Shown here in pieces: positions 18,597 to 64,000 of a stretch of DNA of 64,000 bases. Numbering within the stretch: position 1 is the stretch's first letter; each line of letters begins with the position of its first letter. Location of the stretch: assembly GCA_016213325.1 (NCBI GenBank), contig JACRAY010000016.1, positions 62,001 through 126,000 of the forward strand, written 5' to 3'. Source of the DNA: Burkholderiales bacterium (GTDB lineage Bacteria > Pseudomonadota > Gammaproteobacteria > Burkholderiales > Burkholderiaceae_C). A program made the translations under genes and the position numbers. The notes beneath the pieces were generated by a model that did no database searches, was not told the origin of the DNA, and saw nothing but the letters and a program-made list of their open reading frames with translations.

Positions 18597-19595
18597 TCAG
18601 AGGCGCTGGCGCACGGTGTCGCTCGGGGTCTCCCGGAATTCTTGCCGGTAGTGACGCGAGAATTCGCCAAGGTGGCTGAACCCGTAGGCGAGCGCGGTGT
18701 CCGCGATGCGCGGCGCGGGGTGAACCTGCAGCGCCTCGCGCACGGCAAGCAGCCTTTGCCGGCGCAGCCACTGCATGGGCCCCATTCCATGCGCCGACTG
18801 GAAGGCCCACTGCAGGGTGCGCGTGGGCAACCCGACGGCACTGGCGATCCCGGTCAGCGTCAGCGTGTCGCCCAGCCGCTCCAGCATGTAGGCCTCGGCG
18901 CGCCGGACGCGCGCAGCGGGCGTGCCGACGGCCGGCAGGCGCTGACGCGCGAGGCTGTGCGGCTGGTTCAGCAGCATCGTCGTCGCCAGCATGTCCTGCA
19001 GCCGCGCATGCAGGTGTCGCGGGCGCGATTCGCCAGCATCGGGGTCCGCTTCATCGGCGAGTATCTTCAGCACGGGTTCGATGGCGCGCCACGCGTTGCC
19101 GTCGGTGGGCATCACCGGGCCGAAGCGGATCGGCCGCCGCGGTTCATCGCCGCTCAGCGCCTGCCATGCATCGTCGACGGCTTTGCGCGCAAGGCGCACG
19201 ATGATCGGTTCGTAGTCCGCACTCGCCTGCAGCTGGAAACGTTCGCCGCCACCGGCCAGCACCGCCGATCCACGTGCCGCAGTGAAGCGCACAGCACCGT
19301 TGCGACACTCGGCGTTGCCGCGCACCGGCAAGCACAGCAGGTAGTCATCGTCGAGCGTGCCGACGTCGATCTCGACCGCCGCGTTCCAGGCCATCCTGCA
19401 CACCGTGAGCGGGCCCATCGCCAGCACGTCCATGCGGGCGCGAAAGGTCCGCGCCCCGGCGGCATCCACCCGAAGGTCGTGCGGCAGCAGGGCGCGTGCG
19501 GCGCGTTGACGTGCCTCGTCGACATCGTGTGTCTCGAACAGACGCGAGCGGGCGAAATCGATACGGCCGAACACCGGCCAGGCGGCAAGCTTCAT
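18597..19595 (-). CDS. AraC family transcriptional regulator
   Basis: A 332-residue regulator with an N-terminal AraC-binding-like domain (about residues 1-210) and a C-terminal double helix-turn-helix (GDTLTLTGIASAVGLPTRTL, then IADTALAYGFSHLGEFSRHYRQ). Its ATG overlaps the stop of the GTPase gene by ATGA, so it is cotranscribed as the last gene of the carboxylase operon. It may give positive feedback or respond to a pathway acid; the divergent two-component system is the more obvious primary control. Confidence 0.88.
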   Translation of the reverse strand: MKLAAWPVFGRIDFARSRLFETHDVDEARQRAARALLPHDLRVDAAGARTFRARMDVLAMGPLTVCRMAWNAAVEIDVGTLDDDYLLCLPVRGNAECRNGAVRFTAARGSAVLAGGGERFQLQASADYEPIIVRLARKAVDDAWQALSGDEPRRPIRFGPVMPTDGNAWRAIEPVLKILADEADPDAGESRPRHLHARLQDMLATTMLLNQPHSLARQRLPAVGTPAARVRRAEAYMLERLGDTLTLTGIASAVGLPTRTLQWAFQSAHGMGPMQWLRRQRLLAVREALQVHPAPRIADTALAYGFSHLGEFSRHYRQEFRETPSDTVRQRL

Positions 19596-20629
19596 GATAC
19601 TGCGCAGGTTCCCAGGGTGGCTTCGACGACGCTCGACTCGATCCCCTCGCCAATGAACACGAGGACCGAGCGACGCCGCTCAAACGGACGCCACATCGTA
19701 CCGCCGCCGATCTGAATGGTGCCCTGAACGCCCTGCAGGATCAGGCGCGCGCGCCGCCCGGCCGCATGTACGACGCCTTTGCAGCGCCAGAGGCGCTGGC
19801 CGTAGCGGGCAATCAGACCGTCGAGCGCCGCATTGAGCGCGTCGAGGTCAAGCGGATCGTCAGTGGTGAAGACGCAGGAACGCACGTGCCGCGTGTGGCG
19901 CCCGGGTCCCGGCGCACGCAGCCTGCCGTCGCCCGGTGAGCCCAACGCGATGCCGCTCAGTGCCCTCTGCAGCTCCTGCGTAGGCACGTGGTCGATGGCA
20001 TACGCACGGGTTTCGAAGACATGGGCGAGGAGCTTCTCGGTCGGATCCTGGTGAAGATCGCAGACCAGGATCGGCGCTTGGGGATTCAGCAGCGCCAACT
20101 CCGCCTCCACGGTCGGCCTGATGTCCTGCTCAACAACGTCGGCCTTGCTCAGGACGAGCCGGTCCGCATAGGCCACCTGAGCCTGGAACTCGATCCGCTC
20201 CGCCTGCGCCGCGGCGTGCACAGCGTCGACGACCGCCACGACGCCGTCGAGGTGGAACTGGGCCTCGATCGCGGTTTCGGCACGGAAGGTCTGGATCACG
20301 GGACCCGGATCGGCAAGACCGGTGGTCTCGATCAGCACGCGATCGTATGCCAGCTGCCGGCTGGCGGCTGCCAGCGCGAGCTCGTGCAGTGCCCTGGCCA
20401 GGTCGCCTCGCACAGTGCAGCAAAGGCAGCCGTTGACCAGCTGCACGATGGTTTCGGCGCCGCCGCTCGCAAGGAACTCAGCATCTACCCCCACCTCGCC
20501 GTACTCGTTCTCGACCACCGCCATGCGGGCTCCGCCGGGTTGGCCCAGAAGACGATTGACGAGGGTTGTCTTGCCGCTGCCCAGGAAGCCTGTGACGATG
20601 GTGACGGGCGTGGTCAGGCGTACGGCCAT
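19592..20629 (-). CDS. G3E GTPase, CobW/P47K family metallochaperone
   Basis: A 345-residue GTPase. Walker A is GFLGSGKTT near residues 13-21. The metal-binding motif is GCLCC in VNGCLCCTVRGDL, followed by ETTGLADPG and the guanine-specificity motif SKAD. The C-terminal CobW domain ends the protein. The family loads metals into enzymes such as nitrile hydratase and B12 synthases. Here it is in the operon of an acetophenone-carboxylase-like enzyme, a family with metal-containing relatives (acetone carboxylase needs Mn), so metal delivery to the carboxylase is a reasonable inference. ATG at 20629 is chosen because the GTPase domain starts there. Confidence 0.85.
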   Translation of the reverse strand: MAVRLTTPVTIVTGFLGSGKTTLVNRLLGQPGGARMAVVENEYGEVGVDAEFLASGGAETIVQLVNGCLCCTVRGDLARALHELALAAASRQLAYDRVLIETTGLADPGPVIQTFRAETAIEAQFHLDGVVAVVDAVHAAAQAERIEFQAQVAYADRLVLSKADVVEQDIRPTVEAELALLNPQAPILVCDLHQDPTEKLLAHVFETRAYAIDHVPTQELQRALSGIALGSPGDGRLRAPGPGRHTRHVRSCVFTTDDPLDLDALNAALDGLIARYGQRLWRCKGVVHAAGRRARLILQGVQGTIQIGGGTMWRPFERRRSVLVFIGEGIESSVVEATLGTCAVS

Positions 20630-20639
20630 GGGCGTCTCT

Positions 20640-21995
20640 TCAGTTTTCGCGAACGACCACGAGCGCGTTCTTGTAGACCCCGCGCGGCAAGGAGCCGGGT
20701 GGCTGCACGCTGACCTGCACTCGCACCTGACATTGGCTGCGGACCTCGTTCTCGATGGCATGCGCGAACTCGGCGTACCGGTGCGCGGGCAGCCCCGCGG
20801 CGGCCTCGACGTCCACCGGCAGGGGGTCGTCGAAGCGAACCTGCTCGCGCCTTGCCTTCCAGATGCGTAGCATCGGCTCGATGTGGCCCGCGAACCTGGA
20901 GGCGACAAGGTCGCGGATCGCCGTGGGGAAGACGTTCATGCCCTTGTAGATCAGCATGTCGTCGGTGCGGCCGATGCAGCGGATGCGGGGCGACGTGCGG
21001 CCGCACGAGCAACCCATGCCGACCACGAGCGCGTGGTCGCGCGATCGGTAGCGCACCATCGGTGTCGCCTCGCGGTCGAATGCCGTGTAGACGATTTCTC
21101 CGGTGGCACCCTGCCGCCACGGCAGCACTTCGCCGCTCGCCGGATCGATCAGCTCTATGGCGACATGCTTCTGCGCGTTGAAGTGCATGCCTTCGTGGGC
21201 CTCGCACTCGGACCACATGCCGGAAATCACGTCGCCCAGCCCCATGCATTCGCGCAAGTGCGTGATGCTCAGGCCTTCGGTGATGCGGTGGCGGATCTCC
21301 GGCTGGTTCAGACCGGGTTCTCCGCCGCAGACCACCTTCGCCAGGCGCGAGGGCACGCCGGTCTCCTGGCCCACCGCCTCCCACTGTTCAGACAGGTACA
21401 AGCCGAACGAGGTGGTGGCAAGCAAGGCCGTGCAACGCAGCCGCCGCATCTCCCGCAGGATGCGGTCGGTTGGAAACCCGCCCAGCCAGCACAGGGTGGC
21501 GCCGATGCGCCGGAAGCCGTCGGCATACGGCAGGCCACCGGCCACCATCGGCAAGCCGACCAGATGGGCGACGACGTCTTCGGCGCGGAGCCCCGCCGTG
21601 TACCAGGTGTTGGCAATCGCATCGGCAAACACCTCGCAATCGTGCCGGGTGAGCCCGTAGTACAGCGGCTTGCCCGTGGTGCCGCTCGAGCTGAGAGCCT
21701 GCACGATCTCGCGCAGCGGCACACCCTGGTTGCGCCCCAAGGGTGCATCGTCGCTCGCCGCATCCTGCGCCGCCCTGACGTGCTCCTTGAGGGTGAAGGG
21801 CAGGCGGTCGAGGTCGGCCAACGAGGCGAGGCGAAGATCCTCGGGCAGCGCCTCGTGCAACTCCCTGTACATCGCCGATCGGCGACGGATCGCCGGGAGC
21901 GCACGCTCGATCTGCTGCGCCTGCCAGCGTTCCACCTCGGGCCACGGCAGGGTTTCCAGCTCCGGGTTCCAGTACAAGCCTGCGGACGCCGTCAT
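20640..21995 (-). CDS. phenylacetate-CoA ligase family enzyme, candidate benzoylacetate-CoA ligase
   Basis: A 451-residue AMP-forming ligase of the PaaK group: SSSGTTGKPLYYG near residues 102-114, a FDREATPMVRYRSRDH segment and IGRTDDMLIYKGMNVFP near the C-terminal hinge. PaaK-type ligases activate arylacetic or related acids. It is two bases from the previous gene in the carboxylase operon, so it probably activates the carboxylation product, a benzoylacetate, to its CoA ester. In Aromatoleum the corresponding ligase belongs to another branch of the superfamily as I recall it, so this would be an alternative solution. Confidence 0.8.
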   Translation of the reverse strand: MTASAGLYWNPELETLPWPEVERWQAQQIERALPAIRRRSAMYRELHEALPEDLRLASLADLDRLPFTLKEHVRAAQDAASDDAPLGRNQGVPLREIVQALSSSGTTGKPLYYGLTRHDCEVFADAIANTWYTAGLRAEDVVAHLVGLPMVAGGLPYADGFRRIGATLCWLGGFPTDRILREMRRLRCTALLATTSFGLYLSEQWEAVGQETGVPSRLAKVVCGGEPGLNQPEIRHRITEGLSITHLRECMGLGDVISGMWSECEAHEGMHFNAQKHVAIELIDPASGEVLPWRQGATGEIVYTAFDREATPMVRYRSRDHALVVGMGCSCGRTSPRIRCIGRTDDMLIYKGMNVFPTAIRDLVASRFAGHIEPMLRIWKARREQVRFDDPLPVDVEAAAGLPAHRYAEFAHAIENEVRSQCQVRVQVSVQPPGSLPRGVYKNALVVVREN

Positions 21996-21996
21996 C

Positions 21997-22833
21997 TCAC
22001 CGGCCCCTTACGTGGCGCGCCTGCGCCATCAGCGTCTGAAGATCTGCGTCCGCCGGCACCTCGCCAACCGTCGTAACGAGGCGCTCGGCCGCGGTGTCGT
22101 CGGGCAGCAGCGGCCACGCTGCGGGGTCGCTGTCCCATGCGCGACCATGCGGACGGGGCAGTGGGGCGGGTTGCTGATCGTGCGTCGGGCAGGCGACTGC
22201 CTGCAACGGCCATGACGGGGGCGCGGCTCCCTGCACGACCAGCACGGGGGGCACGCGATGGAAGCGCGCCACGTTGCCCACGGTGCTCAGCGCGGCGCGC
22301 CAGTGCTCGGACTGCGCTTCGCCGGGTAGCGCCGCTTCGTGCCACTGCAGCACGTGCACGCCTGCTTCGCAGAACAGCCGCGCCAGGCCGGCGAGGCCGC
22401 GCCCGACGTGTTCGAACAGCGTCTCGTCGTCGGCCGCGACGCCCCGCGCACGCAGCCTCGCGGCCAGCGTCGCGGGGCCGGTCAGCGCGGCCACGACGAC
22501 CGGTTCACCGCTGTCGGCCTGCCACCGTTTGGCGGCCTCCAGCGAAGCCGCGATGCGCGGGTGCGCCGCCAGCATGCCTGGGGAGATCTCCTGACCGTGC
22601 TGCGACAGCACCATCGCCTCGGCTTCGCCGGGCGCGCTGCAGAAGACAGCGTCGGTGCTCAGCATGCGCTGCAATTCGCCAACGTTCTTGCGCATCCGCG
22701 TTGCATCTTCAGCCATCGCCTCGGGCGCGATGGCCTCGATCTGTGCCGCAACGCCGAACAGCAGCGGTGCGAACAGCGGCGCGTGGTCGCGGCCCGCGCC
22801 GCGCGCCAGATCCTGCATGCGCCTGCGCCACAT
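21997..22833 (-). CDS. fifth subunit-like protein of the carboxylase operon (apc5 position), URO-D-like
   Basis: A 278-residue protein in the place and of roughly the size of acetophenone carboxylase Apc5 (known at about 34 kDa). The segments VAALTGPATLAARL and LARLFCEAGVHVLQWHEAAL recall the uroporphyrinogen decarboxylase/MtaA fold, but I cannot assign active-site residues. In the Aromatoleum enzyme this subunit is loosely bound yet needed for activity, as I recall. Function here is inferred from position only. Confidence 0.55.
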   Translation of the reverse strand: MWRRRMQDLARGAGRDHAPLFAPLLFGVAAQIEAIAPEAMAEDATRMRKNVGELQRMLSTDAVFCSAPGEAEAMVLSQHGQEISPGMLAAHPRIAASLEAAKRWQADSGEPVVVAALTGPATLAARLRARGVAADDETLFEHVGRGLAGLARLFCEAGVHVLQWHEAALPGEAQSEHWRAALSTVGNVARFHRVPPVLVVQGAAPPSWPLQAVACPTHDQQPAPLPRPHGRAWDSDPAAWPLLPDDTAAERLVTTVGEVPADADLQTLMAQARHVRGR

Positions 22834-22843
22834 CGCCGCCCCT

Positions 22844-24898
22844 TCAGGCCCGCAGCAACGGGGCGACTTCCCGGGCGTCGGGCCAAGTGCCGTAGTAGGC
22901 CAGGATCTCGTCGCGCGGCTTCTGCTTCAGCCACTCGGCCTCGAAAGCGTCGTACGCGCGGCCGCGGGCCTTGCGTGCTGCCAGCTCTGCGCCGCGCAAG
23001 CGCGCGGTCTCGTCCAGGTCCACGCGCCTTTGCACCTCGTCCCATGCCACCTTGTAGATGTCGCGAGCAGCCTGCGCCGACAGTACCCCTTTCACCAGAT
23101 CCTGCTCGACCGCCTTTGCATCGCGGTCCAGCGGGTCGCCATAGCCGGTGCCGCCGCAGCTGAAGGCGAAGGTGGCGACATCGCCGTTGTTGTAAGGGCG
23201 CACTGAGCGGCCCTGAAATTCCACCTCGTACTGGCCGTCGATCGGCTTCGTCGTGAGCAGATCCTGCACGTCCAGGTCCAGCACCTTGCTGCCCTCGGCC
23301 ATCAGCTGCTTGACGTTCGCATTGCGGATGCCGATGCCTGGCACCGTGCACGGCGCATAGCCGCCGAACAGCGGCTGGGGCGTCTGCAGCTTGCTGTTGT
23401 CGGCGATCGCCATCATGTAGACCGCCGGAACATGGTGCGCCACCCACAGCTGCACGGTGCCGACGCCGCCACGGTACTTGCCGTGACCGCAGCTGTCCTT
23501 CCAGTGGTTGGACAGAGGCACGAGCAGAGGAAACTCGTTTTCCACCTGCTCCGTGTTGGGCGCGCGGCCAAACACGCACCACGGAAAGCCGAATGCGTCC
23601 ATGCCGTCGGCAGTCGGCCTCGCGCCTTGCCCTTCGGTGTTGATCGAGTAGGCCAACATGTCGGCGAAGGGCGCACCCCACTGGTTCAGGCCGGCGAGCA
23701 CGAGCGCGTTGCCACCGTTGCCCATCGAGGCGCCGCTCTGCTTCCATAGTCCGGTGGAGAACATGGCTTTTGCGCAGCTGTTGTGCACCGCGCTCATCAC
23801 GCCGGTGGAGATCATCACGGAGCACGACGTGGCAGCGCGCGGGTCGGGCGACAGGCAGGTGCGCACGCCGAACTTGAAGTCGATGCTCGCGAACGTGCCA
23901 TTGCTGATCGGCAGCGCGTGGAACAGGTACTCGTAGATGTAGTTTGAGAAGTGCGCGATCGCAGCCTGCGGGTGCGCGTTGTACGGCGATGGCGTCTCGG
24001 GCCCGGTACCCGACAGGTCGACCAGCATGCGGTCGCCCTGCTTTTCGATGGTCATCGCACAGCTCTTGACCAGACCTTGCTTCAGGCCAACTGCGTCGCT
24101 AAACGTGACGCAGCGGTACTTGCCGTCGGGCCACTGCTCGATGAGCGCACGCGCCCCGGTCTCGGCCTCCTGCAGCATGCGCCTGAACAGGCCGCGCAGG
24201 TAATCCGGCCCTTCGCGATCGCATAACTCGATGAGCCGCGTGCGCACCCGGTCCGCTGTCGTACAGCGCGCCTTGAGGTCGACCGAGATCATTGATGGCG
24301 CGCGGATGCCGAACGCGACGAACATCGACACGATGTCCTCGTCGAGCTTGAAGTCGCGTCCGATGCGCATCGGCGGCAGGTTCATGCCTTCCTCAAAGCG
24401 CGTGGTGGCCGACACCGGCATGCCGCCGGGCTCGATCGCCCCGGTCTCCGTCGTGTGAACCAGGGCCGCCGTCCATGCGACCAGCCTGCCCTCGTAGAAG
24501 ACCGGCATGCACACCATCTGGTCAGGGTTGTGCACTCCCCCATAGACAGCATCGTTGGCGAACCAGAGATCGCCGTCGCGCAGCTCGTCGCCGTAGTTCG
24601 CGAGGATGTACTTGATGACCAGCGGCGGGATCACCGCGTGCAGGTAGGTCCCGCAGCTGCCGTTCACGAGATCGCCGTCGGCTGTCATGATGCCAATCAG
24701 GGAATCGCCCGCGACGCCCATCGCGCACCGGCACGACCGGACGAACACGTCCATGCCCTCGTCGAGGATGTCGTTGGTGCGCTGGAAGCCGATCTCGAAG
24801 GTGGCGGCGTCGATCTGCGCTGCCAGGTCCAGCTCCTCCTGGGATGGCGGGGACGGCTTCAGCCAGGTGAGTTTCTGCTCGAGGGTAGGGATGCCCAT
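22844..24898 (-). CDS. HyuB-like subunit of an acetophenone carboxylase (apc4 position)
   Basis: A 684-residue hydantoinase B/acetone carboxylase alpha-type protein (about 75 kDa). Family segments include NPDQMVCMPVFYEG, GTGPETPSPYNAHPQ, SGASMGNGGNAL and GGVGTVQLWVAH. In the acetophenone carboxylase complex this subunit carries the carboxylation site. ATG at 24898 lies after GGAGACA. It stands 19 bases after the HyuA-like gene. Alternatives are a hydantoinase or acetone carboxylase, but the five-gene order argues for the acetophenone type. Confidence 0.82.
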   Translation of the reverse strand: MGIPTLEQKLTWLKPSPPSQEELDLAAQIDAATFEIGFQRTNDILDEGMDVFVRSCRCAMGVAGDSLIGIMTADGDLVNGSCGTYLHAVIPPLVIKYILANYGDELRDGDLWFANDAVYGGVHNPDQMVCMPVFYEGRLVAWTAALVHTTETGAIEPGGMPVSATTRFEEGMNLPPMRIGRDFKLDEDIVSMFVAFGIRAPSMISVDLKARCTTADRVRTRLIELCDREGPDYLRGLFRRMLQEAETGARALIEQWPDGKYRCVTFSDAVGLKQGLVKSCAMTIEKQGDRMLVDLSGTGPETPSPYNAHPQAAIAHFSNYIYEYLFHALPISNGTFASIDFKFGVRTCLSPDPRAATSCSVMISTGVMSAVHNSCAKAMFSTGLWKQSGASMGNGGNALVLAGLNQWGAPFADMLAYSINTEGQGARPTADGMDAFGFPWCVFGRAPNTEQVENEFPLLVPLSNHWKDSCGHGKYRGGVGTVQLWVAHHVPAVYMMAIADNSKLQTPQPLFGGYAPCTVPGIGIRNANVKQLMAEGSKVLDLDVQDLLTTKPIDGQYEVEFQGRSVRPYNNGDVATFAFSCGGTGYGDPLDRDAKAVEQDLVKGVLSAQAARDIYKVAWDEVQRRVDLDETARLRGAELAARKARGRAYDAFEAEWLKQKPRDEILAYYGTWPDAREVAPLLRA

Positions 24899-24917
24899 GA
24901 TGTCTCCTGATCCAGGT

Positions 24918-27110
24918 TCAAGCGGCCACGGCCACGCGCGAGGTGACGCGCCGGCGCGGCGGTGGCGGTGTTACGGCTTCGAGGATACCCAGGCCGTGCT
25001 TCTCGATGGTGAACTTCTGCCCCGGCGGCACGACGATCGTCGTGAGCTCGGCTTCCACCACGGCAGGCCCCCTGACTACGTTGCCGGCCTGCAGTTGTTC
25101 AAACTGGAAGACCGGCGTCGTCGCCCAGCTTCGGCTCTCCGGCCAGTAGGCCTGGCGTTCCCCGACCAGTGCGCCGACCGGGTCTTCGCCTTGCAGCGGA
25201 AACTCGGGCACCTCGGGCTTCCAAGTCGGCACCGTGACGCGAAGGACAAAGTTGTCGAGGAACACGCCACCAGGCTTGTTCACGACCAGCGGCGAGAACG
25301 CCTCGCTGAATTCGCGCTCGAATGCGTCGTAGATCGCCTGGGTGTCGGCCGCACTGTCGATACGCAGCCGCGGCGAGGAGGCGCGCTTCAGGTTGACCTG
25401 GCCGCCGTAGAGCATGTCCAGCTCCAGTTCGTAACGGGCGGCGCTGGCGTCCAGCCCTTCGCTGGCAAGGTCGGCGCGGGCCCGCTCGACCAAGGCATCC
25501 ACCGTGGCATTGAACGCCGCCGCGTCCACCACGAGGCGCTCGCTCATCGGCTCCATGAACACCATGCGGCGGCTCTGCTCGTACATGTGGACGATGTCCA
25601 TGATCGAGCTGCCCATCGCGCAGAACACCGGTGCGGCCGGGAACACCACGGCTTTCGGCACGTCGCCGCGCAAGCCGCTCATATGCGTCGGGCCCGCGCC
25701 CCCGAACGCGAAGAGGACGAAGTCCTCCGGGTGGTAGCCGCGCATGTGCACCTCGCGCTTGATCGCGCCGGCCATGTTTTCGTCGACGACGCGCCGGATC
25801 AGCGCTGCAGCCTCGACCACCTCGATGCCCAGCGGTTGCGCGACGCGCTCGCGGATGGCCTTCACGGCCTTGGCCTTGTTCAGCGGCATGCGGCCGCCGT
25901 AGTAGGTGTCGGGGTTGATGTAGCCGAGCACGACGTCGGCATCGGTCACCGTCGGCTCCGTGCCGCCAAGGTCGTAGCACGCCGGCCCCGGCATCGAGCC
26001 GGCGCTGCGGGGACCCACCGTGAGCCGACCCTGTTCGACGCTAGCGATCGAGCCGCCCCCCGCGCCGACGGATAGGGTCTGCATCATCGTCACGTTGACC
26101 ATCCACTTGTCGATCACAGGGCGGAAGGTGTAGTTGCGCACCCCGCTCTCGACCACGAGTGCGACGTCGAAGCTGGTGCCGCCCACGTCGCCGGCGATCA
26201 CGTTCTTGAAACCGAGCTTGCTCGCGAAGTAGGCCGATCCCATCAGCCCGGCCACGGGCCCGCCGTTGAAGGTGCGGCTGGCGGGCGTCTTGAAGATGTC
26301 CGCCGACCCCCCGGAGTTGTGGATCATGAGGAAGGCGCCACGATAGCCGCGCTCGCGCAGCTTGTCCCAGGTGGCGCCGATATCGTTCTGCATCGACCGC
26401 TGCAAGTAGGCATCGAGCACCGCCGTCATCGTGCGCTCGTACTCGCCGATCTTGCTGACGACGCTGGAGGACAGCACCACCGGGACGAAGCCGATGTGGT
26501 ACTCCTTGTACTCCTCGCGGATGATCTCGCGCACGCGCTTCTCATGCGCCGGGTTCATGAAGCTCCACAGCAGCGAGACGACGATTGCCCGCGCCCCGCG
26601 GTCCATCAGAAGGCGCAGCTTGTGGCGCACGTCATCTTCGTCAAGCGGTCGCACGACGTGGCCGCTGGAGTCGATGCGCTCCTTGACGCCAAGAATCAGG
26701 CTGCGCTCGATCAGCGGGTGGGGCTTGTGCTGGGCGGCAATGTTGCGCCGCTCGGAAACGCGTTGGCCGTCGGTCCATTGAGCGCCACGGCCGATGAGGA
26801 TGGCGTCCTCGTGGCCCTCGGTGGTGAGCAGGCCGATGCGCGGACCCTGCCGCTGCAAGAGGCGGTTCAGTGCGACGGTGGTGCTGTACCGGATGACGTC
26901 CACGCGCGGCAGCAACTCCTCGACGCTCAGGCCCACCTTGTCACCTCCCGCCTCAACGGCGTTGATGAAGCCCACCGACAGATCGTGCGGCGTCGTCGGG
27001 CACTTGGCGATGAAGCGCTCGCCGTCCAGCGTCAGCACGAGGTCGGTGAACGTGCCGCCGACGTCGATGTCGATGGAGTTGATGGTCTCACTGTTCGTCG
27101 TGTTGGTCAT
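24918..27110 (-). CDS. HyuA-like ATPase subunit of an acetophenone carboxylase (apc3 position)
   Basis: A 730-residue hydantoinase A/oxoprolinase-type protein. It has an N-terminal DIDVGGTFTDLVL phosphate-binding motif, a second motif AGDVGGTSFDVAL near residue 300, and FAFGGAGPTHM. This fold binds ATP and phosphorylates the carbonyl substrate or bicarbonate. Apc3 of Aromatoleum is reported at about 87 kDa, compared with about 80 kDa here. Its ATG overlaps the stop of the small subunit (ATGA). Confidence 0.85.
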   Translation of the reverse strand: MTNTTNSETINSIDIDVGGTFTDLVLTLDGERFIAKCPTTPHDLSVGFINAVEAGGDKVGLSVEELLPRVDVIRYSTTVALNRLLQRQGPRIGLLTTEGHEDAILIGRGAQWTDGQRVSERRNIAAQHKPHPLIERSLILGVKERIDSSGHVVRPLDEDDVRHKLRLLMDRGARAIVVSLLWSFMNPAHEKRVREIIREEYKEYHIGFVPVVLSSSVVSKIGEYERTMTAVLDAYLQRSMQNDIGATWDKLRERGYRGAFLMIHNSGGSADIFKTPASRTFNGGPVAGLMGSAYFASKLGFKNVIAGDVGGTSFDVALVVESGVRNYTFRPVIDKWMVNVTMMQTLSVGAGGGSIASVEQGRLTVGPRSAGSMPGPACYDLGGTEPTVTDADVVLGYINPDTYYGGRMPLNKAKAVKAIRERVAQPLGIEVVEAAALIRRVVDENMAGAIKREVHMRGYHPEDFVLFAFGGAGPTHMSGLRGDVPKAVVFPAAPVFCAMGSSIMDIVHMYEQSRRMVFMEPMSERLVVDAAAFNATVDALVERARADLASEGLDASAARYELELDMLYGGQVNLKRASSPRLRIDSAADTQAIYDAFEREFSEAFSPLVVNKPGGVFLDNFVLRVTVPTWKPEVPEFPLQGEDPVGALVGERQAYWPESRSWATTPVFQFEQLQAGNVVRGPAVVEAELTTIVVPPGQKFTIEKHGLGILEAVTPPPPRRRVTSRVAVAA

Positions 27111-27502
27111 TGCGCCACCTCCGTTTGCCGCGCCGGCTTCACGAGCTTGCCTTCGCGGATGATCAACTCCCCGCGGGCGAGACGTGCCTTCAGGCTGTCG
27201 ATGTCGACCTCGATGTCGTGCGTGATGGGGTGCCCGGGCGGCAGGTATTCGGTTTCGATCTGGCGCGCGCAGCCCGGGCAGTAGAACTCGAGGATTCGCA
27301 CCCAGTCCTTGTCTGGCGCGAAGGTGTACGGGCCATCGATTACCGGCTCGTGGATCTCCTCGGGCATGCGCTCGGCGACGAGGCAGCCACGCTTGTAGTT
27401 CTCGCGGGCGCTGATCAGCCGGGTGCCGCAATCGTGGCAGTACCAGTGCTCGTCGTTCAAGTCGAGGTCCAGGTACTCGGTGAAGCGGATGCGTTCGTGC
27501 AT
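27107..27502 (-). CDS. small cysteine-rich subunit of an acetophenone carboxylase (apc2 position)
   Basis: A 131-residue (about 15 kDa) protein with CHDCG near residue 23 and CPGC near residue 75, two CxxC pairs able to bind zinc. It resembles the acetone carboxylase gamma subunit. The 15 kDa Apc2 is the most distinctive size marker of the five-subunit enzyme. AGGAG stands before ATG 27502. It is coupled to the HyuA-like gene by ATGA. Confidence 0.82.
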   Translation of the reverse strand: MHERIRFTEYLDLDLNDEHWYCHDCGTRLISARENYKRGCLVAERMPEEIHEPVIDGPYTFAPDKDWVRILEFYCPGCARQIETEYLPPGHPITHDIEVDIDSLKARLARGELIIREGKLVKPARQTEVAQ

Positions 27503-27528
27503 AAGAGTCTCCTTCGTCGTCGTTGCGC

Positions 27529-29502
27529 TCAGATCCGTTGCAGCTGAGCGTTGCCGTACTCGTCGACGCCCAGACGCCATCCGGCAGGCACCGGGCACGT
27601 CAGCGTTGCCCCATTGACGATCGCAGGCCCGTCAATGACGCTGCCAACATTGAGCTCCTCCCAACGATGAACGGCCACGCGCTCGCGTGCGCTCGCCGTG
27701 AAGCGAACCTCGCGCTGCCCTGGATGCTGGGTTGCCACGCGGTCGGTGCGTCTGCCGATGTCGAAGCTGCCGACAGCGTGGCGCGTAGCCAGGCGCAGCG
27801 CGATCAGCGGCTGGCTCGACTGGCGGGCGTGGTCGACTGCACGTGCGAGTGCGCTGATCACTGCTTCCGTCTGCGGGTCCGCACTCTCGGCTCGAACCGT
27901 CGTGATCTCCGACTCGGTAGGCCCGAAGTCGAGCTCCCATGTGTAGCGCGCCTGTACCGGATCGAACCCCTCGCCCCGCAGGTCGCGCGCGGCCTGCGTT
28001 CGCATTGCCTGTACGGTGGGCGTGAGGAACTTCCCGGCATGGTCGTCCCAGATCAAGTCCAGGCCGCGCTCGTAGCTGTGCACGACATCAGAGATCGCCG
28101 AGCCGAAGGCGCTGAACACCGGCCCCAGGTTGAACGCATAGGCCGCGGGCATCCCAAGTTTCTCGGCGACGAAGGCTGCGAACATCGGGCCGTTGCCACC
28201 GAAGGCGAACAGCGGCGTCTCGGCAGCGTCGATCCTGCCTTCGTAGAGGATGTTGCCGACCAGTTCGGCCATCATCGCGACCGCCTCGTCGCGCACGGAC
28301 AGCGCCGCCACGTCGATCGAGACGCCGAGCGGACGTGCCACGTGCTTCTCGATCGCCGCCGCGGCCAGATCGGCCCTCAGCGTGCGGCGACCACCCAGGA
28401 AATTGGCCGGATCGAGGTAACCCAGCACGAGCAGCGCATCGGTAAGGGTCGCCTGATCGCCCGCAAGCCCGTAGCAGGCAGGCCCTGGGGCCGCGCCCAT
28501 GCTTTCCGGTCCCAGCCCCACTGATCCGCGGCGGACGCGCGCGACCGAGCCACCGCCCACGACAGCCGAGCGCAGCATCGCAAACGAGGTGCGGACCGGC
28601 ACACCCATCAGCTCGCCGCCCCGCTGGTAGACCGGGGCGCCGTCGCGCACTACCGACGCCTTCGTCGTCGTTCCGCCGACGTCGAAGCACACGGCATTGC
28701 GCAGGCCATAGACGTGAGCCATGTGTGCTCCGCCGAACGTGCCGAAGACGGGGCCTGACTCGATGGTGTCCACTGCTTTGGTCTTGCCGATGCGGGCGAC
28801 GCCACCGTTGGTATGTCCGATGAGAAGCGTTCCGTTCCAGCCGTGGTCGTCGCGCAGCAGGTCCTCAGCCTTGAACAGCGAGTTCGCAAGCTGCGCGTGT
28901 GTGTAGGCGTTCATGACGGAGTAGTGCGCGCGCGTCTGGTCGTGGCGCAGCGCTGCCATCTCGCTGCCCAAGAGCACCGGCACGGCACCGATGATGTGGT
29001 CGGGGTACTGGTCCTCGACGACCGCCTTGATCGCGGACTCGGCGGCGTTGTCCGGGAAGGCATCGGACAGGCATACGCAGATGCGCCGCACGCCGGCCTC
29101 GAGCAACTCCTTGACGCCGCTCAGCACGTCCGTCGCGGAAGGCCGGGCGGGCAGGCCGATGATCGCGCCGTCAGGGACCAGTTCGCCGACGATGGGCGAG
29201 CGGCTCTTGCCGTATAGGTCCTCCTCATGCCCCTCGCTCACCAGGAGCCCGACCTTCGAACCGCGACGCTCGCCGAGCACGTTGGTCGTGATGGTGGACG
29301 ACCAGCGGATCAGACTCACGTCGCGCAAGAAACGTTCGACGCTGCCGTCGCCCAGCGCGCTGGCAGCCTCCTGCAGACATGCCAGGAAGGACACCGTGTA
29401 GTCATGCGGCGTCGTGTCGACCTTGAAGGCGTGGCGCCGGGCGCCGTCTGACACCAGGGCGTCGGTCATGGTGCCGCCGGTGTCGATGTCCACAGTGAAC
29501 AT
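27529..29502 (-). CDS. HyuA-like ATPase subunit of an acetophenone carboxylase (apc1 position)
   Basis: A 657-residue hydantoinase A-type protein (about 70 kDa, the size of Apc1). Motifs are [14 protein letters not shown] at the N-terminus, [13 protein letters not shown] near residue 270 and [10 protein letters not shown]. It is only distantly similar to the other HyuA-like subunit, in line with two ATPase sites used for two ATP per substrate in the known enzyme. ATG at 29502 is preferred because GGAGACAGC precedes it and the motif starts at residue 4. First gene of the operon. Confidence 0.85.
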
Positions 29503-29613
29503 GCTGTCTCCTGTCGTCGGGCCGCGATGGCGACCTTGTGGTGCCGGCATGATCCGGCGGCGGCCGGGTAGCGTCATCAGGAGCGAACACGCGCCGCGTA
29601 AAGAGATTCCGTA

Positions 29614-29646
29614 GTGCAATGCAATATAGGGAAAGCCCCATTGCAC
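29614..29646. promoter_or_regulatory. long inverted repeat between carboxylase operon and sensor kinase gene
   Basis: GTGCAATG (29614-29621) and CATTGCAC (29639-29646) are perfect 8-bp arms with 17 bases between. The site lies in the divergent promoter region and is a good candidate for binding of the LuxR-type response regulator. It also argues against the longest in-frame kinase start at 29614. Confidence 0.55.
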
Positions 29647-29655
29647 GCCAGCGCG

Positions 29656-31344
29656 ATGCTGCGAGGTTCGACGCTGTCACTCCGCATGCCGATGAATTCC
29701 GAGACGCCGATATCTCTTGATGGACAGACGCAACTGCCGTCGAGCGAGCTCGACCGCGCGACGTTTCCTTGGCAGCTCGTGCTGGAGAACACGATCGTCG
29801 GGATCAGCTACATGCAGGACCGTCGCTTCCTCTGGGCCAATGCCCGGATGGCCGAGATCTTCGGCTTCGCTCCCGGCGAGTTGGACGGCGAGGTCGTCCG
29901 GCGCCTCTATGCGACGCAGGAGGACTACGACGATGTTGGGCGCCTGATGGCGCAAGCGAGTAGCGACCGTTTCGTCACGCACGAGCGCGCGATGGCCTGC
30001 AAGGACGGTCGACTCATCTGGTGCCGCATCTCCGGTCGCATGCTGCGCGAAGGCGACGCGCGCATGCCCTCGGTGTGGGTCGTCCAGGATTTGAGCGACA
30101 AGAAGCGCGCCGAGGACGAGCTCAGGCGCATCAACCAGCGACTTGAAGACATCGTCGAGCGCCGCACAGTGAACCTGCAACGCTCGAACGCGGCCTTGAA
30201 GGCCGAGATTGAACGCGGCCGCGAACTGCGGCAGGCCGCCGTTGCCAGCCGCGAGAAGTACCGCACGCTGTTCACGAACATGCCCCTTGGCGTGCTGGTT
30301 GTCGGCGCGGACGGCATGCCGGCGGAAGCGAACCGCACACTGCGCACCTACCTCGGCGCGACGACGCGAGATCAGCTGCACGGGCTGATCCACGAGGACG
30401 CGCGCGTGCTGCGCAGCGACGGTACCACTTGCTCGCTCGCCACCATCGTCGGTGAGCACTGCGGGGGCGATCAGCCGCGTGTTCAGCGCTTCGAGTTCTC
30501 ATGGCTGGGGCGCGCCAGCCGCCCGCGCGAAATTTCCGCGGTCGCGGCGCCGTTGGGCGCGTCGGGCGGCGCGGTGTTCACCTTCGCAGATGTCAGTGAG
30601 CAGCATCGCCGCAGGCAGCAGGAGCACCGCGAGCAGGAGACGCTGGCACACGCGTCACGGCTCTCGCTGATGGGTCAGATGGCGTCCGCGCTCGCGCACG
30701 AACTGGGCCAACCGCTGAACACCTGCCAAAGCTACTTGAGCGGGTTGCGGCACCGCCTTGACCCGCTGCTCGTCGATCAACCCGAGCTGCTGCAGGCGCT
30801 GGACCGGGCGTGCGACCAACTGGTGCAGGCGGGGCAGATCATCCGTAACGTGCGCGACTTCGTGTCGAAGCCGGCCCCGATGTTCGAGACTATCAAGCTG
30901 GAGCCGCTTCTTCGGCAGACCCTTGCTCTCCTGGAGCTGCCACTGCGCACGGCGCAGGTGCAGACAGTACTCAGTCCGACGCCGGATAACGTGCTCGTTC
31001 GCGGCCATTCGGTCGAGATCCAGCAGGTGGTGGTGAACCTGATCGTCAACTCGATCGAAGCAATGGCGGAGACGCCGCCCATCAGCCGGAAGATCGAGAT
31101 CCGGACTTCGACGGACAGTCGCCTTGCGACGGTCGAGCTCACCGATGCGGGCTGCGGCGTGTCTCCTGATATCGCCGCCCGGATGTTCGATCCCTATGTC
31201 ACGTCGAAGCGGTCCGGGCTAGGCATGGGGCTCATGATCAGCCGCATGATCGTCGAGTCGCATGGTGGCTCGCTGCGGCACGTCCGCCAGCGCGGCACGG
31301 GCGCCTCCTTCCGCTTTACGCTGCGGCTAGCCGCCCCCGTATGA
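29656..31344 (+). CDS. PAS-domain sensor histidine kinase
   Basis: A soluble kinase of about 562 residues with no membrane segments. Two PAS regions (about residues 35-150 and 200-325) flank a coiled-coil linker ([20 protein letters not shown]). The phospho-acceptor region is [13 protein letters not shown]. The ATPase domain shows [19 protein letters not shown] and [10 protein letters not shown]. This layout is like TodS- or StyS-type cytoplasmic aromatic sensors in part. The start is uncertain: 29614, 29656, 29686 and 29692 are all in frame and none has a good ribosome site. It is coupled to the response regulator (ATGA) and divergent from the carboxylase operon, its likely target. Confidence 0.85.
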
Positions 31345-31964
31345 ACGACTCGTCGCCCCAGCCTATCCAGGTCTTCCTCGTCGACGACGAGCCGAGCGTG
31401 ACCGCCAGCCTGAAGTGGCTGCTCGAGTCCGTGCGCATTCCGGCCACGTCCTTCGATTCGCCGGTCGACTTTCTTCGAGCGATCGATTGTTTCGACGGCC
31501 CGGCCTGCGCAATCCTCGATCTGCGCATGCCGGACATGAGCGGGCTGGAGCTGCAACAGGCGCTGGCGGAGCGAAGTTGCGACATGCCGCTCGTATTCCT
31601 GACCGCTCATGGTGACGTGCCCGCTGCAGTCAACGCTCTGCAGGCCGGTGCGATCGACTTCGTCCAAAAGCCGTTCAACCCCGATGCCTTCCTGGCGAGC
31701 GTGCGCAAGGCGATGCGCCTTGCGCGCGACAGGTACGAAGCGAGGGTCGCCCGTCGGGAGATCGAGGCTCGATTGCAGCAACTCTCCGCTCGCGAAGGGG
31801 ACGTGCTGCACGGCTTGTTGGAAGGCCGCACAAGCAAGGAGATCGCACGTCGGCTCAACATCAGCCCCAAGACGGTCGATGTACATCGCGCCAATGTGAT
31901 GCGCAAGATGCAAGTCGATAGCAGCGGGCAACTACTCCGGCTGCTTGGCCGTCGAATGCTCTGA
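31341..31964 (+). CDS. FixJ/NarL-type response regulator
   Basis: A 207-residue regulator. The receiver domain has the acidic pair D15-D16, phospho-acceptor D60 in AILDLRMPDMSG, and K110 in FVQKPF. The C-terminal LuxR helix-turn-helix is EGRTSKEIARRLNISPKTVD, then HRANVMRKM. The pair resembles StyR/TodT/FixJ regulators of aromatic genes. Likely target is the divergent carboxylase operon. Confidence 0.9.
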   Translation: MNDSSPQPIQVFLVDDEPSVTASLKWLLESVRIPATSFDSPVDFLRAIDCFDGPACAILDLRMPDMSGLELQQALAERSCDMPLVFLTAHGDVPAAVNALQAGAIDFVQKPFNPDAFLASVRKAMRLARDRYEARVARREIEARLQQLSAREGDVLHGLLEGRTSKEIARRLNISPKTVDVHRANVMRKMQVDSSGQLLRLLGRRML

Positions 31965-37980: not shown

Positions 37981-39027
37981 CTACGAGCTCGCGAAGCCTG
38001 CGCTGTTCGCAGGCACCGCGCCGCGCACCTTGAGAAGATCCAGCGCCACGTCCACGATCATGTCCTCCTGTCCGCCAACCATGCGCCGTCGCCCGAGCTC
38101 CACGAGAATGTCTATCGTCTTCAGACCGTACTTGCGCGCCGCAGCTTCCGCATGGCGCAGGAAACTCGAATAGACGCCCGCGTAGCCAAGTGCAAGCGTC
38201 TCACGGTCGACGCGAACCGGGCGATCCTGCAAGGGGCGCACGATGTCGTCTGCTGCGTCCATCAGTTTAAACACGTCCGTGCCGTGATCCCAGCCAATGC
38301 GATCGGCTGCCGCGACGAACACTTCGAGTGGCGCGTTCCCCGCGCCGGCACCCATGCCTGCGAGGCTGGCGTCGACGCGGTCGCACCCTTCTTCAACGGC
38401 GACGATCGAATTCGCGACACCAAGGCTCAAGTTGTGGTGAGCATGGATGCCGGTGAGCGTTTCGGCTTTGAGCACGTACTTGAGCGCGCGAAAGCGCTCG
38501 CGAACGTCGCTCATGTTCAGTGCACCGCCGGAATCGACCACGTAGATGCAAGTAGCGCCGTAGCTTTCCATGAGTTTGGCTTGTCGTGCCAGCTCAATCG
38601 GGGTCGTCATATGGCTCATCATCAGGAATCCGACGGTGTCCATCCCGAGCGTGCGTGCATACTCGATGTGCTGCTTGCTCACGTCCGCTTCCGTGCAATG
38701 CGTGGCGACGCGCACGACGCGTGCACCGGCGTCGTAGGCTGCTCTCAGGTCGTGGACCGTGCCGATCCCAGGCAGCAGCAGAGTCGCCACCTGCGCACGC
38801 TTGACGACGCTTGCTACCGCCTCGATCCACTCGAGATCGGTATGCGCGCCGAACCCGTAGTTGAAGCTTCCACCCTGCAGTCCATCGCCGTGCGCGACTT
38901 CGATCGAATCGACGCCCGCGTCATCCAGCGCGTGCGCGATCTTGCGGACCTGGGCGACGCTGTACTGATGGCGCACCGCGTGGCTGCCGTCACGCAACGT
39001 GACATCCGAAATGTAGATCTTCTTCAT
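37981..39027 (-). CDS. 4-hydroxy-2-oxovalerate aldolase
   Basis: A 348-residue DmpG/BphI/MhpE-type class II aldolase that cleaves 4-hydroxy-2-oxovalerate to pyruvate and acetaldehyde. [15 protein letters not shown] at the N-terminus holds the catalytic arginine and metal aspartate, and [15 protein letters not shown] holds the metal histidines. It is coupled to the acetaldehyde dehydrogenase gene (ATGA), with which the enzyme normally forms a channelling complex. Confidence 0.93.
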
Positions 39028-40166
39028 GCGGTTGCTCCCGTCGCCAGGATGCGTGCCGCAATGCGCTCCGCCGTCGCCAGCGCCGCACTCGTCATGATGT
39101 CCAGGTTGCCCGCATAGGCAGGCAGATAGTGCGCGGCGCCTTCGACCTCCAGGAAGATGGAGGTCTTCAGTCCGGACACGCGCCCGACACCCGGCACATT
39201 CAGCGCCTCGACCCGATCGAACTGCACCTGCTGCTTGAGGCGATATCCCGGCACGTAGCGGCGCACGGCGGCGACGGTCTCTTCGATGCTGGCTGCGACC
39301 GCCGCTTCGTCAGCGATTTCGCTGAGCGTATACACCGTGTCGCGCATGATGAGCGGTGGCTCCGCGGGATTCAGGATGATGATGGCTTTGCCCTTGGCCG
39401 CGCCCCCGACGACCTCGATCGCCTTCGATGTGGTCTCGGTGAACTCGTCGATGTTGGCACGCGTACCTGGACCCGCACTCTTGCTCGAGATCGAGGCAAC
39501 AATTTCAGCGTAGTGCACTTTGGCGACCCGGCTCACGGCAGCCACCATCGGAATGGTGGCCTGTCCGCCGCACGTCACCATATTGACGTTTCGCGCGTCA
39601 AGATGATCGGCCCCGTTCACGACGGGAATGCAGTATGGGCCGATTGCGGCCGGCGTGAGATCCACGCAGCGGATGCCGGCCTTGAGTGTGCGCAGAATCG
39701 CATCATTCTTGACGTGCGCAGCTGCGGATGTCGCGTCGAAGACGATGTCGATGTCGTCGAACACCGGCAGCCGCGTCAGGCCATCCACGCCTTCGTGCGT
39801 CGAGACCACCCCCAGCCGCGCGGCGCGAGCCAGGCCGTCAGACGCAGCATCGATGCCGACCATCGCGCCCATCTCGACATGCTCGCCGTGGCGCAGGATC
39901 TTGATCATCAAGTCCGTTCCGATGTTGCCGCTGCCGACGATCGCAGCTTTCAGTTTTCGTTCAGTCAATCTTTGCCCCCCGCTGGGTGCTGACTTGGGAA
40001 CGCCGCCTACGCCCCAGTGCGCCCCGGGCACCTCCTGCAGGATGACGCGGATGGACTCGCGCGGCGCGCCGGTGGCTTCAACGGCGGCTTCGGTCAGCCT
40101 ATGGATCAGCGCGGTCTTCATGTCCGTGCTGCGACCTTCGATCATCGTGACCTGGATCAATGGCAT
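39024..40166 (-). CDS. in-frame fusion of 4-oxalocrotonate tautomerase and acylating acetaldehyde dehydrogenase
   Basis: A 380-residue frame. Residues 1-60 are a 4-oxalocrotonate tautomerase ([12 protein letters not shown] with Pro directly after Met, [16 protein letters not shown]). After a linker ([10 protein letters not shown]), residues about 67-380 are a DmpF/MhpF acetaldehyde dehydrogenase with [14 protein letters not shown], the catalytic cysteine in [11 protein letters not shown] and [15 protein letters not shown]. No stop separates them. ATG 40166 gives the catalytic N-terminal proline; ATG 40178 overlaps the previous stop but would bury it. TTG at 39968, after a GGGGGG stretch, could start a separate 314-residue dehydrogenase, the usual size. 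Confidence 0.85.
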
Positions 40167-40174
40167 TGCGTTTC

Positions 40175-40948
40175 TCATTCAGTGGTATGGAACTCGACTC
40201 GGCCGAGCCCCTGCATTTCCAGCAAAACGTGTTGACCAGGCTTCAATGGCTCGGCCGCCGTGGCGCCGCCGGCCATCACGATCCAGCCGGCCTGCAGCGG
40301 TTCATAGGCAGCGGCGCTGAGCCGAGCGGCGGCCACGAGCGAGCGCAGCGGATGGCCGAGGATGCCGGCGGTGCTACCGACCTGGCGGGCGCTGCCGTTG
40401 ACGGACATCACCAGACCCAGATTGGAGAAGTCGCGGTCCGGCGCGCACCACGGGCCAATCACATACCCCGATGACGAGGCGTTGTCCGCGACCACGTCGC
40501 CCAGCGTGAACTTGAAGTCTTCGAAACGTGAGTCGATGATCTCCAGCGCCGGCGCGATCGCGGCCACTGCATCGAGCGCCTCCGGAAAGCTCACAAGCGC
40601 ATGCAGCGGTTTCTTCAGCAGGAAGGCCAGCTCCGGCTCGACACGCGGATGCACGAATCGTCCTAGGGACATCGGAGCGCCATCGGCTTGCGCCATCGCG
40701 TCCGTCAGTCGACCCCAGATCATGTCGTGAACGCCCATCTGGGCCATCTTGGCGCGGCTGGTGAAGCCCATCTTCACGCCGGTGCGGCATTCGCCCCGCT
40801 GGATGCGGCGTGCGATCGATGCGGCCTGTACCGCGTAGGCGTCCTCTTCGCGCAGTTCTTCCGCTTCGGCGAACTGCGAAATTGCCTGTGCGCGGTGTGC
40901 CGCCGTGTCGACGCGCTCGGCCAGGGCGGCGATGCGTTCCTCATTCAT
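40175..40948 (-). CDS. 4-oxalocrotonate decarboxylase
   Basis: A 257-residue DmpH/XylI-like enzyme that decarboxylates 2-oxo-3-hexenedioate. It has [29 protein letters not shown] and [20 protein letters not shown], which fit the decarboxylase branch better than the hydratase branch. It is coupled to the hydratase gene by ATGA; the two enzymes form a complex in known pathways. Confidence 0.88.
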
Positions 40949-41739
40949 TGCTGCTTCTCCTCGAACACCGCACGCACTGATCCCATGCCGCCGATACGTG
41001 CCTCGAACGCGTCGCCGGGGCGAACGGGCACCATCGGGCCCAACGCGCCCGTCAACACGACATCGCCAGCCTTGAGGCCGCGGCCGAGCGCGGCCATCTT
41101 GTTGGCGAGCCAGAGCGCCGCGTTCAGCGGGTGACCGAGGCATGCGGCACCCGCGCCGAGGGAGACCTGCTCGCCCGCACGCTCCATGACCATCCCGGCC
41201 AACCGCAGGTCCAGGCCGTTCAGGCTGACGGGCGTGTTGCCGAGAACGAAGGCGCTGCTGGAGGCGTTGTCAGCCACCGTGTCAACGAATCGGATATTCC
41301 AGTTCTCGATGCGGCTGCCCACAATTTCGATGGCAGGCAATGCGAAGGCTACTGCACGCAGTAGCTGCGCCGACGTGATACCCGGCTCCGCAAGGTCACG
41401 CTCCATGACCAGCGCCACTTCTGCTTCGACCTTCGGCTGCATCAGGCGCGACCAGCTCACCGGCTCACCGTCAGCGACGGACATGTCGGCGAACAGCATC
41501 CCGTAATCGGGCTGATCGACCCCGAGCTGCTGCTGAACCGAACGAGCGGTGAGGCCGATTTTTCGGCCCACGAGGCGCGCACCCGCCTCGAGCCGCCGCT
41601 CGGTGTTGTGCTCCTGTATCGCGTAGGCGTCTTCTCCCGTCATCCCGGGGAAGCTCTCGCGCAGTGGTGCGATGCCCTCGCCCGCTTCGGCGGCGTTCCA
41701 CAACAGGTTCGCCGCCAGTTCAATCTCTCGCGCATTCAT
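40945..41739 (-). CDS. 2-oxopent-4-enoate hydratase
   Basis: A 264-residue MhpD/DmpE/XylJ-type hydratase. [30 protein letters not shown] and [17 protein letters not shown] are nearly those of E. coli MhpD as I remember it. It adds water to 2-hydroxypentadienoate to give 4-hydroxy-2-oxovalerate. Its ATG overlaps the stop of the semialdehyde dehydrogenase (ATGA). Confidence 0.92.

Positions 41740-63162: not shown

Positions 63163-64000
<838 letters not shown>

Follow-up and report, generated by a model that had tools for sequence, protein, structure and literature searches.

An acetophenone-carboxylase-type operon with a co-inherited G3E GTPase gene in a Burkholderiales bacterium

The 64,000-nucleotide stretch of Burkholderiales DNA analyzed here (contig JACRAY010000016.1, positions 62,001 to 126,000; hereafter the window, numbered from its first letter) carries an eight-gene operon on its minus strand, running from position 29502 to 18597. 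We propose, with a probability of about 85%, that the operon encodes an inducible, biotin-independent carboxylase for acetophenone or a very similar aryl methyl ketone. Comparisons of subunits, conserved residues and gene order support its assignment to the acetophenone carboxylase (Apc) type, as a further member of a known family. Apc carboxylates a recalcitrant aromatic ketone and thereby opens it to degradation. The operon also contains a gene for a G3E GTPase that has been inherited together with the carboxylase.

In order of transcription the operon comprises apcA (27529–29502, 657 residues, subunit alpha'), apcB (27107–27502, 131 residues, gamma), apcC (24918–27110, 730 residues, alpha), apcD (22844–24898, 684 residues, beta), apcE (21997–22833, 278 residues, epsilon), a gene for a PaaK-type coenzyme A (CoA) ligase (20640–21995, 451 residues), the gene for the G3E/CobW GTPase (19592–20629, 345 residues) and a gene for an AraC-type regulator with AraC_binding_2 and HTH_18 domains (18597–19595, 332 residues). 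The successive intergenic gaps are 26, -4, 19, 10, 1, 10 and -4 bases. All eight genes start with ATG and are free of internal stops, and a purine-rich stretch precedes most of the starts. Divergently, on the plus strand, lie the genes of a FixLJ-like pair, a FixL-like PAS histidine kinase (29614–31344, with an ATG start possibly at 29686) and a FixJ-like LuxR-type response regulator (31341–31964). A preliminary description of the sequence had placed all ten genes where we find them: it had read the first five as an apcABCDE order (HyuA-like, cysteine-rich 15 kDa, HyuA-like, HyuB-like and about 30 kDa), had extended the operon by the ligase, GTPase and AraC genes, and had noted the divergent two-component system. 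The 15-kDa protein is indeed rich in cysteine, with two CxxC pairs.

Among all PDB sequences, the best match of each core subunit is the counterpart chain of the Apc core of Aromatoleum aromaticum (5L9W), with E values of 0 (ApcA), 7e-73 (ApcB), 0 (ApcC) and 0 (ApcD); chance is excluded. Identities are 70.9% for ApcA (chain b), 80.2% for ApcB (chain C), 83.6% for ApcC (chain B) and 85.4% for ApcD (chain A), and the lengths in the window and in 5L9W nearly coincide (beta, 684 and 684 residues; gamma, 131 and 129; alpha, 730 and 732; alpha', 657 and 658). ApcD scores 1396.8 bits against Apc, as compared with 142.3 against acetone carboxylase, 132.2 against 6yra chain B (annotated as a hydantoinase) and 98.7 against N-methylhydantoinase. 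The same pattern holds for ApcA, ApcB and ApcC, for which the Apc chain of the matching kind is far ahead of the other families where those match at all. Closer kinship to hydantoinases or 5-oxoprolinases, which would have undone the earlier identification as Apc, was looked for and not seen. Scanned against NCBIfam, all five proteins score highest with the model of their Apc counterpart, and ApcB exceeds its equivalog cut-off (254.8 against 250 bits). The genome has a single further Hydantoinase_B gene outside apcD.

For ApcE, the AlphaFold model (predicted local distance difference test score 96.8) has a fold like that of uroporphyrinogen decarboxylase. Its best PDB match by Foldseek is 9fou, an Apc epsilon subunit of 51–54% identity, followed by a uroporphyrinogen decarboxylase. 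A structure of the epsilon subunit, which PMC5214803 had called elusive, has thus been deposited (December 2025), and we dropped its fold as an open question. In the literature library searched, no paper from 2018 on combines ApcE with acetophenone.

The residues that define the sites of the enzyme are likewise conserved. From the text of PMC5214803 we took a set of 18 site residues, and all 18 are identical to those of A. aromaticum: the seven of the ketone pocket in ApcC (L81, F281, N282, P285, I333, Q344 and T345), the three of the bicarbonate pocket in ApcA (E248, D274 and K281), the four zinc cysteines of ApcB and the four of the metal site in ApcD (D65, H123, D126 and H148). The ASKHA motifs DVGGT and GxxPGP occur in both ApcA and ApcC. 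KERIDSSG is present at position 143 of ApcC and has no equivalent in ApcA, the R/KERiDsxG pattern being expected in the alpha subunit only.

We surveyed relatives in a collection of 84,980 genomes, one per species. This yielded 131 relatives, of which the best 80 (L027–L106), together with L022 and L025, make up the 82 loci compared, many of them on short contigs. Close apc genes are rare: ApcD is found at an E value of 1e-100 in 2 of 299 genomes of the family (the source genome included), at 1e-60 in 4 of 349 genomes of the order (the other three merely 30–32% identical) and at 1e-60 in 6 of 369 genomes of the class. A plasmid collection gave nine records with ApcD at 29–43% identity and no close ones. 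The pocket string LFNPIQT occurs in 14 of the 16 loci that have an ApcD of at least 70% identity and a readable ApcC, the exceptions being L038 (MYNPIQT) and L079 (LFNPIET), and in none of the 52 more distant readable loci, which have, for example, MYNPIQT, MFNPIQT, MYSPLQT or LFNPIKT; 14 of the 82 rows lack a readable pocket. Of the 82 rows, 80 retain the metal residues DHDH (one of the others is incomplete and one has an arginine), which therefore do not discriminate between substrates. A 20-row tree of ApcC plus ApcD places the window with A. aromaticum in a single clade of ten rows (bootstrap 100; Shimodaira–Hasegawa approximate likelihood-ratio test [SH-aLRT] 100), far from acetone carboxylase and the hydantoinases, and a 66-row tree again groups the two (SH-aLRT 100). 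We note in passing that two loci with distant apc genes (60%), L042 and L078, come from metagenome-assembled genomes labeled Klebsiella pneumoniae; either mislabeling or misbinning is probable. Between apcC and apcD of a close relative (G176; L022:7941–9485) lie two genes for short-chain dehydrogenases, possibly 1-phenylethanol dehydrogenases.

Both the N-terminal and the C-terminal CobW domains were found in the G3E GTPase. The motif GCxCC is the metal motif of G3E metallochaperone GTPases, and its three cysteines are invariant in 13 aligned apc-linked copies, that of the window included. Besides the window, 13 of 17 close loci have a G3E gene in the neighborhood of apc, as against 0 of 65 distant loci (many of them on short contigs); within a 16-row clade of the 66-row tree, 14 of the 15 readable members have one. 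Of the close loci, L031 has its G3E gene about 7 kb further along, cut by the end of the locus, and the contig of L040 is too short to judge. When compared with 23 paralogues from 14 searched genomes, the 13 apc-linked proteins form one clade (SH-aLRT 99), whose internal groupings agree in part with the Apc tree. The source genome has one other G3E gene, separate from the apc-linked copy. By these phylogenies the GTPase is a single lineage inherited together with this Apc clade and, among the compared loci, specific to it.

What might the client of the GTPase be? A metal in Apc is likely, most probably that of the ApcD site, a role to which linkage and co-inheritance point. The ApcD residues D65, H123, D126 and H148, which form a mercury site in the Apc crystals, align, by our reading of the printed alignment, with Glu89, His150, Asp153 and His175 of acetone carboxylase, and those residues hold a manganese that PMC5543143 proposes to be catalytic.

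We infer from these observations a substrate, a chemistry, a path of metal delivery and a mode of regulation as follows. ApcC, the proposed ketone kinase, would phosphorylate the enol of the ketone at the cost of one ATP, and ApcA, the proposed bicarbonate kinase, would make carboxyphosphate with a second. The phosphoenol product and carboxyphosphate would join to give benzoylacetate, with ApcE required for turnover. We transfer this carboxylation mechanism, which is established or proposed in A. aromaticum, on the strength of 71–85% identity. The PaaK-type ligase would then convert benzoylacetate to benzoylacetyl-CoA. A thiolase from another part of the genome would cleave that, yielding acetyl-CoA and benzoyl-CoA, whose ring the box enzymes would open with oxygen. 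The GTPase would load metal into the Apc complex, and the divergent kinase and regulator would sense the ketone.

The ligase, predicted to act on benzoylacetate, is encoded inside the apc operon, which is the expected place of a gene for a benzoylacetate-CoA ligase (Bal). It is of PaaK type; at 187.4 bits it misses the cut-off of the PaaK model (646.3) and is thus not PaaK itself. At the level of whole genomes, homologues (E at most 1e-80) recur in 9 of 17 apc genomes and in none of 25 controls (23 genomes of the family without a close ApcD and two with the distant type). A thiolase family with Pfam Thiolase_N and Thiolase_C domains also recurs: it is present in 12 of the 82 loci at an identity of at least 57% (the query's own locus counted) and in four more at 47–49%, and it directly follows the ligase gene in L022, L030, L038 and L079. 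In whole genomes, members of at least 62% identity occur in 7 of the 17 apc genomes and in none of the 25 controls, four of which have relatives of 47–51%. The copy of the source genome (contig 7, 26022–27206) is 65% identical and lies on a different contig from the apc operon; one small gene separates it from a second boxB–boxA pair (L120:12020–16491, same contig). The benzoylacetyl-CoA thiolase was termed so far unknown in PMC4729919 (2016), and we put forward this apc-linked family, the source-genome copy included, as a candidate for it.

Upstream of apcA, an element like TTAGnCnnTAGGGAATCGnTCC is common to 12 regions. At a width of 34 its Gibbs score was 368.6, as compared with 235.1 (standard deviation 5.6, maximum 244.0) in 12 Markov-shuffled sets, although the 12 regions are related by descent, for which shuffling does not control. 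The copy in the window, a candidate operator on the minus strand at 29573–29606, is degenerate, and its position depends on the width, a width of 16 picking 29601–29616 instead. A scan of 29400–29800 for promoter and terminator consensus sequences found nothing. Sensor and regulator genes also lie upstream, divergently, in L022, L028, L030, L032, L033, L034 and L039; in L079 they lie upstream on the same strand as apc. None of the compared loci encodes a homologue of the AraC regulator at 1e-8.

Several points weigh against this interpretation. Four of the five proteins miss their NCBIfam equivalog cut-offs: ApcA with 1157.7 of 1250 bits, ApcC with 1460.5 of 1500, ApcD with 1403.5 of 1500 and ApcE with 347.9 of 450 (93, 97, 94 and 77% of the cut-off, respectively). 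The thiolase family is below every NCBIfam cut-off, and the window's own apc operon has no thiolase gene. As to the zinc of Apc, PMC5214803 prefers the cysteine site, with a structural role. Finally, a G3E gene was not found near apc in L037, L038 and L041, two of which keep the pocket, so that the GTPase is not universally needed.

These last loci bear on an alternative that we consider a serious, if lesser, contender, namely that the GTPase gene serves metal stress in general, happens to ride in the operon and has no part in the maturation of Apc. G3E proteins often serve zinc homeostasis, and three loci of the close set do without one near apc. Moreover, acetone carboxylases acquire their metal in Escherichia coli without chaperones, according to PMC10865871. 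Set against this are the presence of the gene in most of the close apc loci and its lack beside the distant ones, the grouping of the apc-linked copies apart from the paralogues, and the separate G3E gene that the source genome keeps.

A second alternative, which we judge unlikely, accepts a true Apc-type carboxylase and gives it another natural aryl or alkyl ketone, such as propiophenone or a ring-substituted acetophenone, so that it would feed a substituted benzoyl-CoA or another acyl-CoA. The family is large, with its 131 relatives; PMC5214803 (2017) urged caution for distant relatives, with one Apc characterized; and the window has further genes for the catabolism of aromatic compounds. 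Yet all seven proposed pocket residues are shared with A. aromaticum and differ in the distant loci, the two enzymes share the ten-row clade, and a box route for unsubstituted benzoate is present. The preliminary description had also named 4-hydroxyacetophenone as a possible substrate; nothing here supports this, and A. aromaticum is described in PMC4729919 as degrading that compound by an entirely different pathway.

That the operon encodes instead an acetone or butanone carboxylase (Acx) or an ATP-dependent amidohydrolase of the hydantoinase or 5-oxoprolinase type is extremely improbable and refuted by the sequence: these enzymes share with Apc the Pfam domains Hydantoinase_A, Hydantoinase_B and Acetone_carb_G, but the five-gene order, the lengths, the Cys4 gamma subunit and the scores go against them, Acx having one HyuA-type subunit rather than two and a gamma subunit of about 168 rather than 131 residues, and the hydantoinases and oxoprolinases being two-gene systems without gamma.

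Returning to the proposed aryl ketone carboxylase, some relatives suggest a second way to process its product. In L027, L034 and L035, all without the ligase, a gene for a beta-keto acid cleavage enzyme lies near apc. That of L035, directly after the G3E gene, belongs to PF05853; those of L027, beside box genes, and L034 are 64–70% identical to it and match NCBIfam keto-acid cleavage models below cut-off. In L034 one LysR-type gene, read by eye, separates it from a 3-oxoacid CoA-transferase gene. The ligase-free apc genome of L028 encodes the enzyme elsewhere. The enzyme is found in none of the nine ligase genomes (Fisher p 0.029, kinship ignored); in independent pairs drawn from the tree the median p is 0.5, the pairs being too few to reach significance. 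It was not found in four other ligase-free apc genomes, many of the genomes being metagenome-assembled, and its occurrence in 4 of 17 apc genomes against 1 of 25 controls is not significant (p 0.14). In the control copy a flagged stop falls at the end of the match. By eye, a gene near the enzyme in that control and in the L028 genome resembles a 3-hydroxyacyl/carnitine-type dehydrogenase, and hence another substrate is quite possible. With statistics this weak, the pattern is suggestive only of a ligase-free route in which the enzyme would replace the ligase, converting benzoylacetate and acetyl-CoA to benzoyl-CoA and acetoacetate without ATP. We rejected it as the route of the source genome, which has no match at 1e-30 to the apc-linked type (29% identity in L121). 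No paper in the literature library searched combines the full name of the enzyme with acetophenone. Separately, contig 17 of the source genome has a gene for a beta-keto acid cleavage enzyme in two pieces (80051–80663), one with an in-frame TAG.

For benzoyl-CoA, the window and genome hold box genes, all over cut-off: boxC (61464–63140, plus strand; TIGR03222, 949.7 bits), the gene for 3,4-dehydroadipyl-CoA semialdehyde dehydrogenase (58292–59839, minus strand; NF008868, 891 bits), that for benzoate-CoA ligase (56693–58279, minus strand; TIGR02262, 803.7 bits), a BoxR-like regulator gene in the window, boxB, which starts near 63163 and crosses the window end, and boxA, which follows outside. 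The nearest of them, from 56693 on, is separated from the start of apcA by about 27 kb. A difference from the known box pathway is the second boxBA pair, with the thiolase close by, on the other contig. Every step from acetophenone through benzoylacetate and benzoyl-CoA to ring opening thus has a candidate enzyme, the thiolase being encoded on that other contig. The earlier account had stressed the meeting of Apc with the oxygen-dependent box pathway in one region. The meeting itself stands, with boxA, boxB and boxC in the genome, and apc lies beside box-type genes also in L027, L035 and L041; there is precedent for aerobic operation of Apc, the enzyme being one that A. aromaticum is reported to use aerobically (PMC4729919).

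The surroundings hold further features. Just beyond the right end of the window, after the box cluster, lies a conjugation cluster (TrbI, TrbE, TrbB and TraG by NCBIfam; L123:5692–17330, contig 12 of the source genome, about 131.7–143.3 kb), and the aromatic region may thus border an integrative conjugative element. Meta-cleavage genes occupy 37981–44781 (minus strand); they encode an aldolase, a hydratase, a 2-hydroxymuconic semialdehyde dehydrogenase and, reaching none of the cut-offs, an extradiol dioxygenase. Within them, an open reading frame of 380 residues (39024–40166, minus strand) appears to fuse two enzymes of meta-cleavage, 4-oxalocrotonate tautomerase (residues 1–60) and acylating acetaldehyde dehydrogenase (69–376). 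At 53015–54885 (plus strand) are the large and small subunits of a Rieske enzyme like benzoate or anthranilate dioxygenase, well under the equivalog cut-offs.

How does the operon compare with known systems? A. aromaticum EbN1 has the same five genes in the same order, with the CoA ligase gene in the same operon, and two-component genes in its cluster too (PMC4729919 and PMC5214803). The likeness extends to 71–85% identity in the core, 51–54% of ApcE to 9fou, and the 18 site residues. The window operon is closed by G3E and AraC genes, and box genes share its region. No ethylbenzene dehydrogenase was named among 40 window genes scanned with NCBIfam, a scan that included no dedicated search for one. 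Acetone carboxylase AcxABC (PDB 5SVB and 5M45) resembles Apc in its related HyuA, HyuB and gamma subunits, its use of ATP and its manganese ligands, which align with the ApcD site, Asp65 replacing Glu89; it differs in gene order (acxABC), longer subunits and far lower scores. A metagenomic fosmid tabulated in PMC3676327 has a CobW-like gene with acetophenone carboxylase genes, along with thiolase, AMP ligase and 3-oxoacid CoA-transferase genes, and lists a sigma-54 activator gene where the window has a two-component pair. The linkage of apc to CobW is therefore already in print, as a single mention in that table; literature searches that paired acetophenone with G3E, or acetophenone carboxylase with CobW, gave nothing else relevant. 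The best matches of the fosmid genes are mostly, as listed there, Azotobacter vinelandii DJ proteins with consecutive accession numbers, from which the genes look to be adjacent there too.

We tentatively suggest, as an idea that could well prove wrong, that Apc of this clade is metal-dependent, that the metal of the ApcD site is catalytic, homologous to the manganese/iron center of acetone carboxylase and loaded by the co-inherited GTPase, and that the step after carboxylation is modular, using either a ligase with an apc-linked thiolase or a beta-keto acid cleavage enzyme. PMC5214803 describes Apc as the sole characterized enzyme of its branch in 2017, and another complete operon that shares its pocket residues is thus a useful test case. 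The comparison names candidates that can be checked, a benzoylacetyl-CoA thiolase and a protein that probably helps a very slow enzyme to its metal, and it gives grounds to re-examine whether the metal of Apc is merely structural, as PMC5214803 favored. What may surprise specialists is the combination of a co-inherited GTPase with a metal site like that of acetone carboxylase, together with candidates for the step after the ligase.

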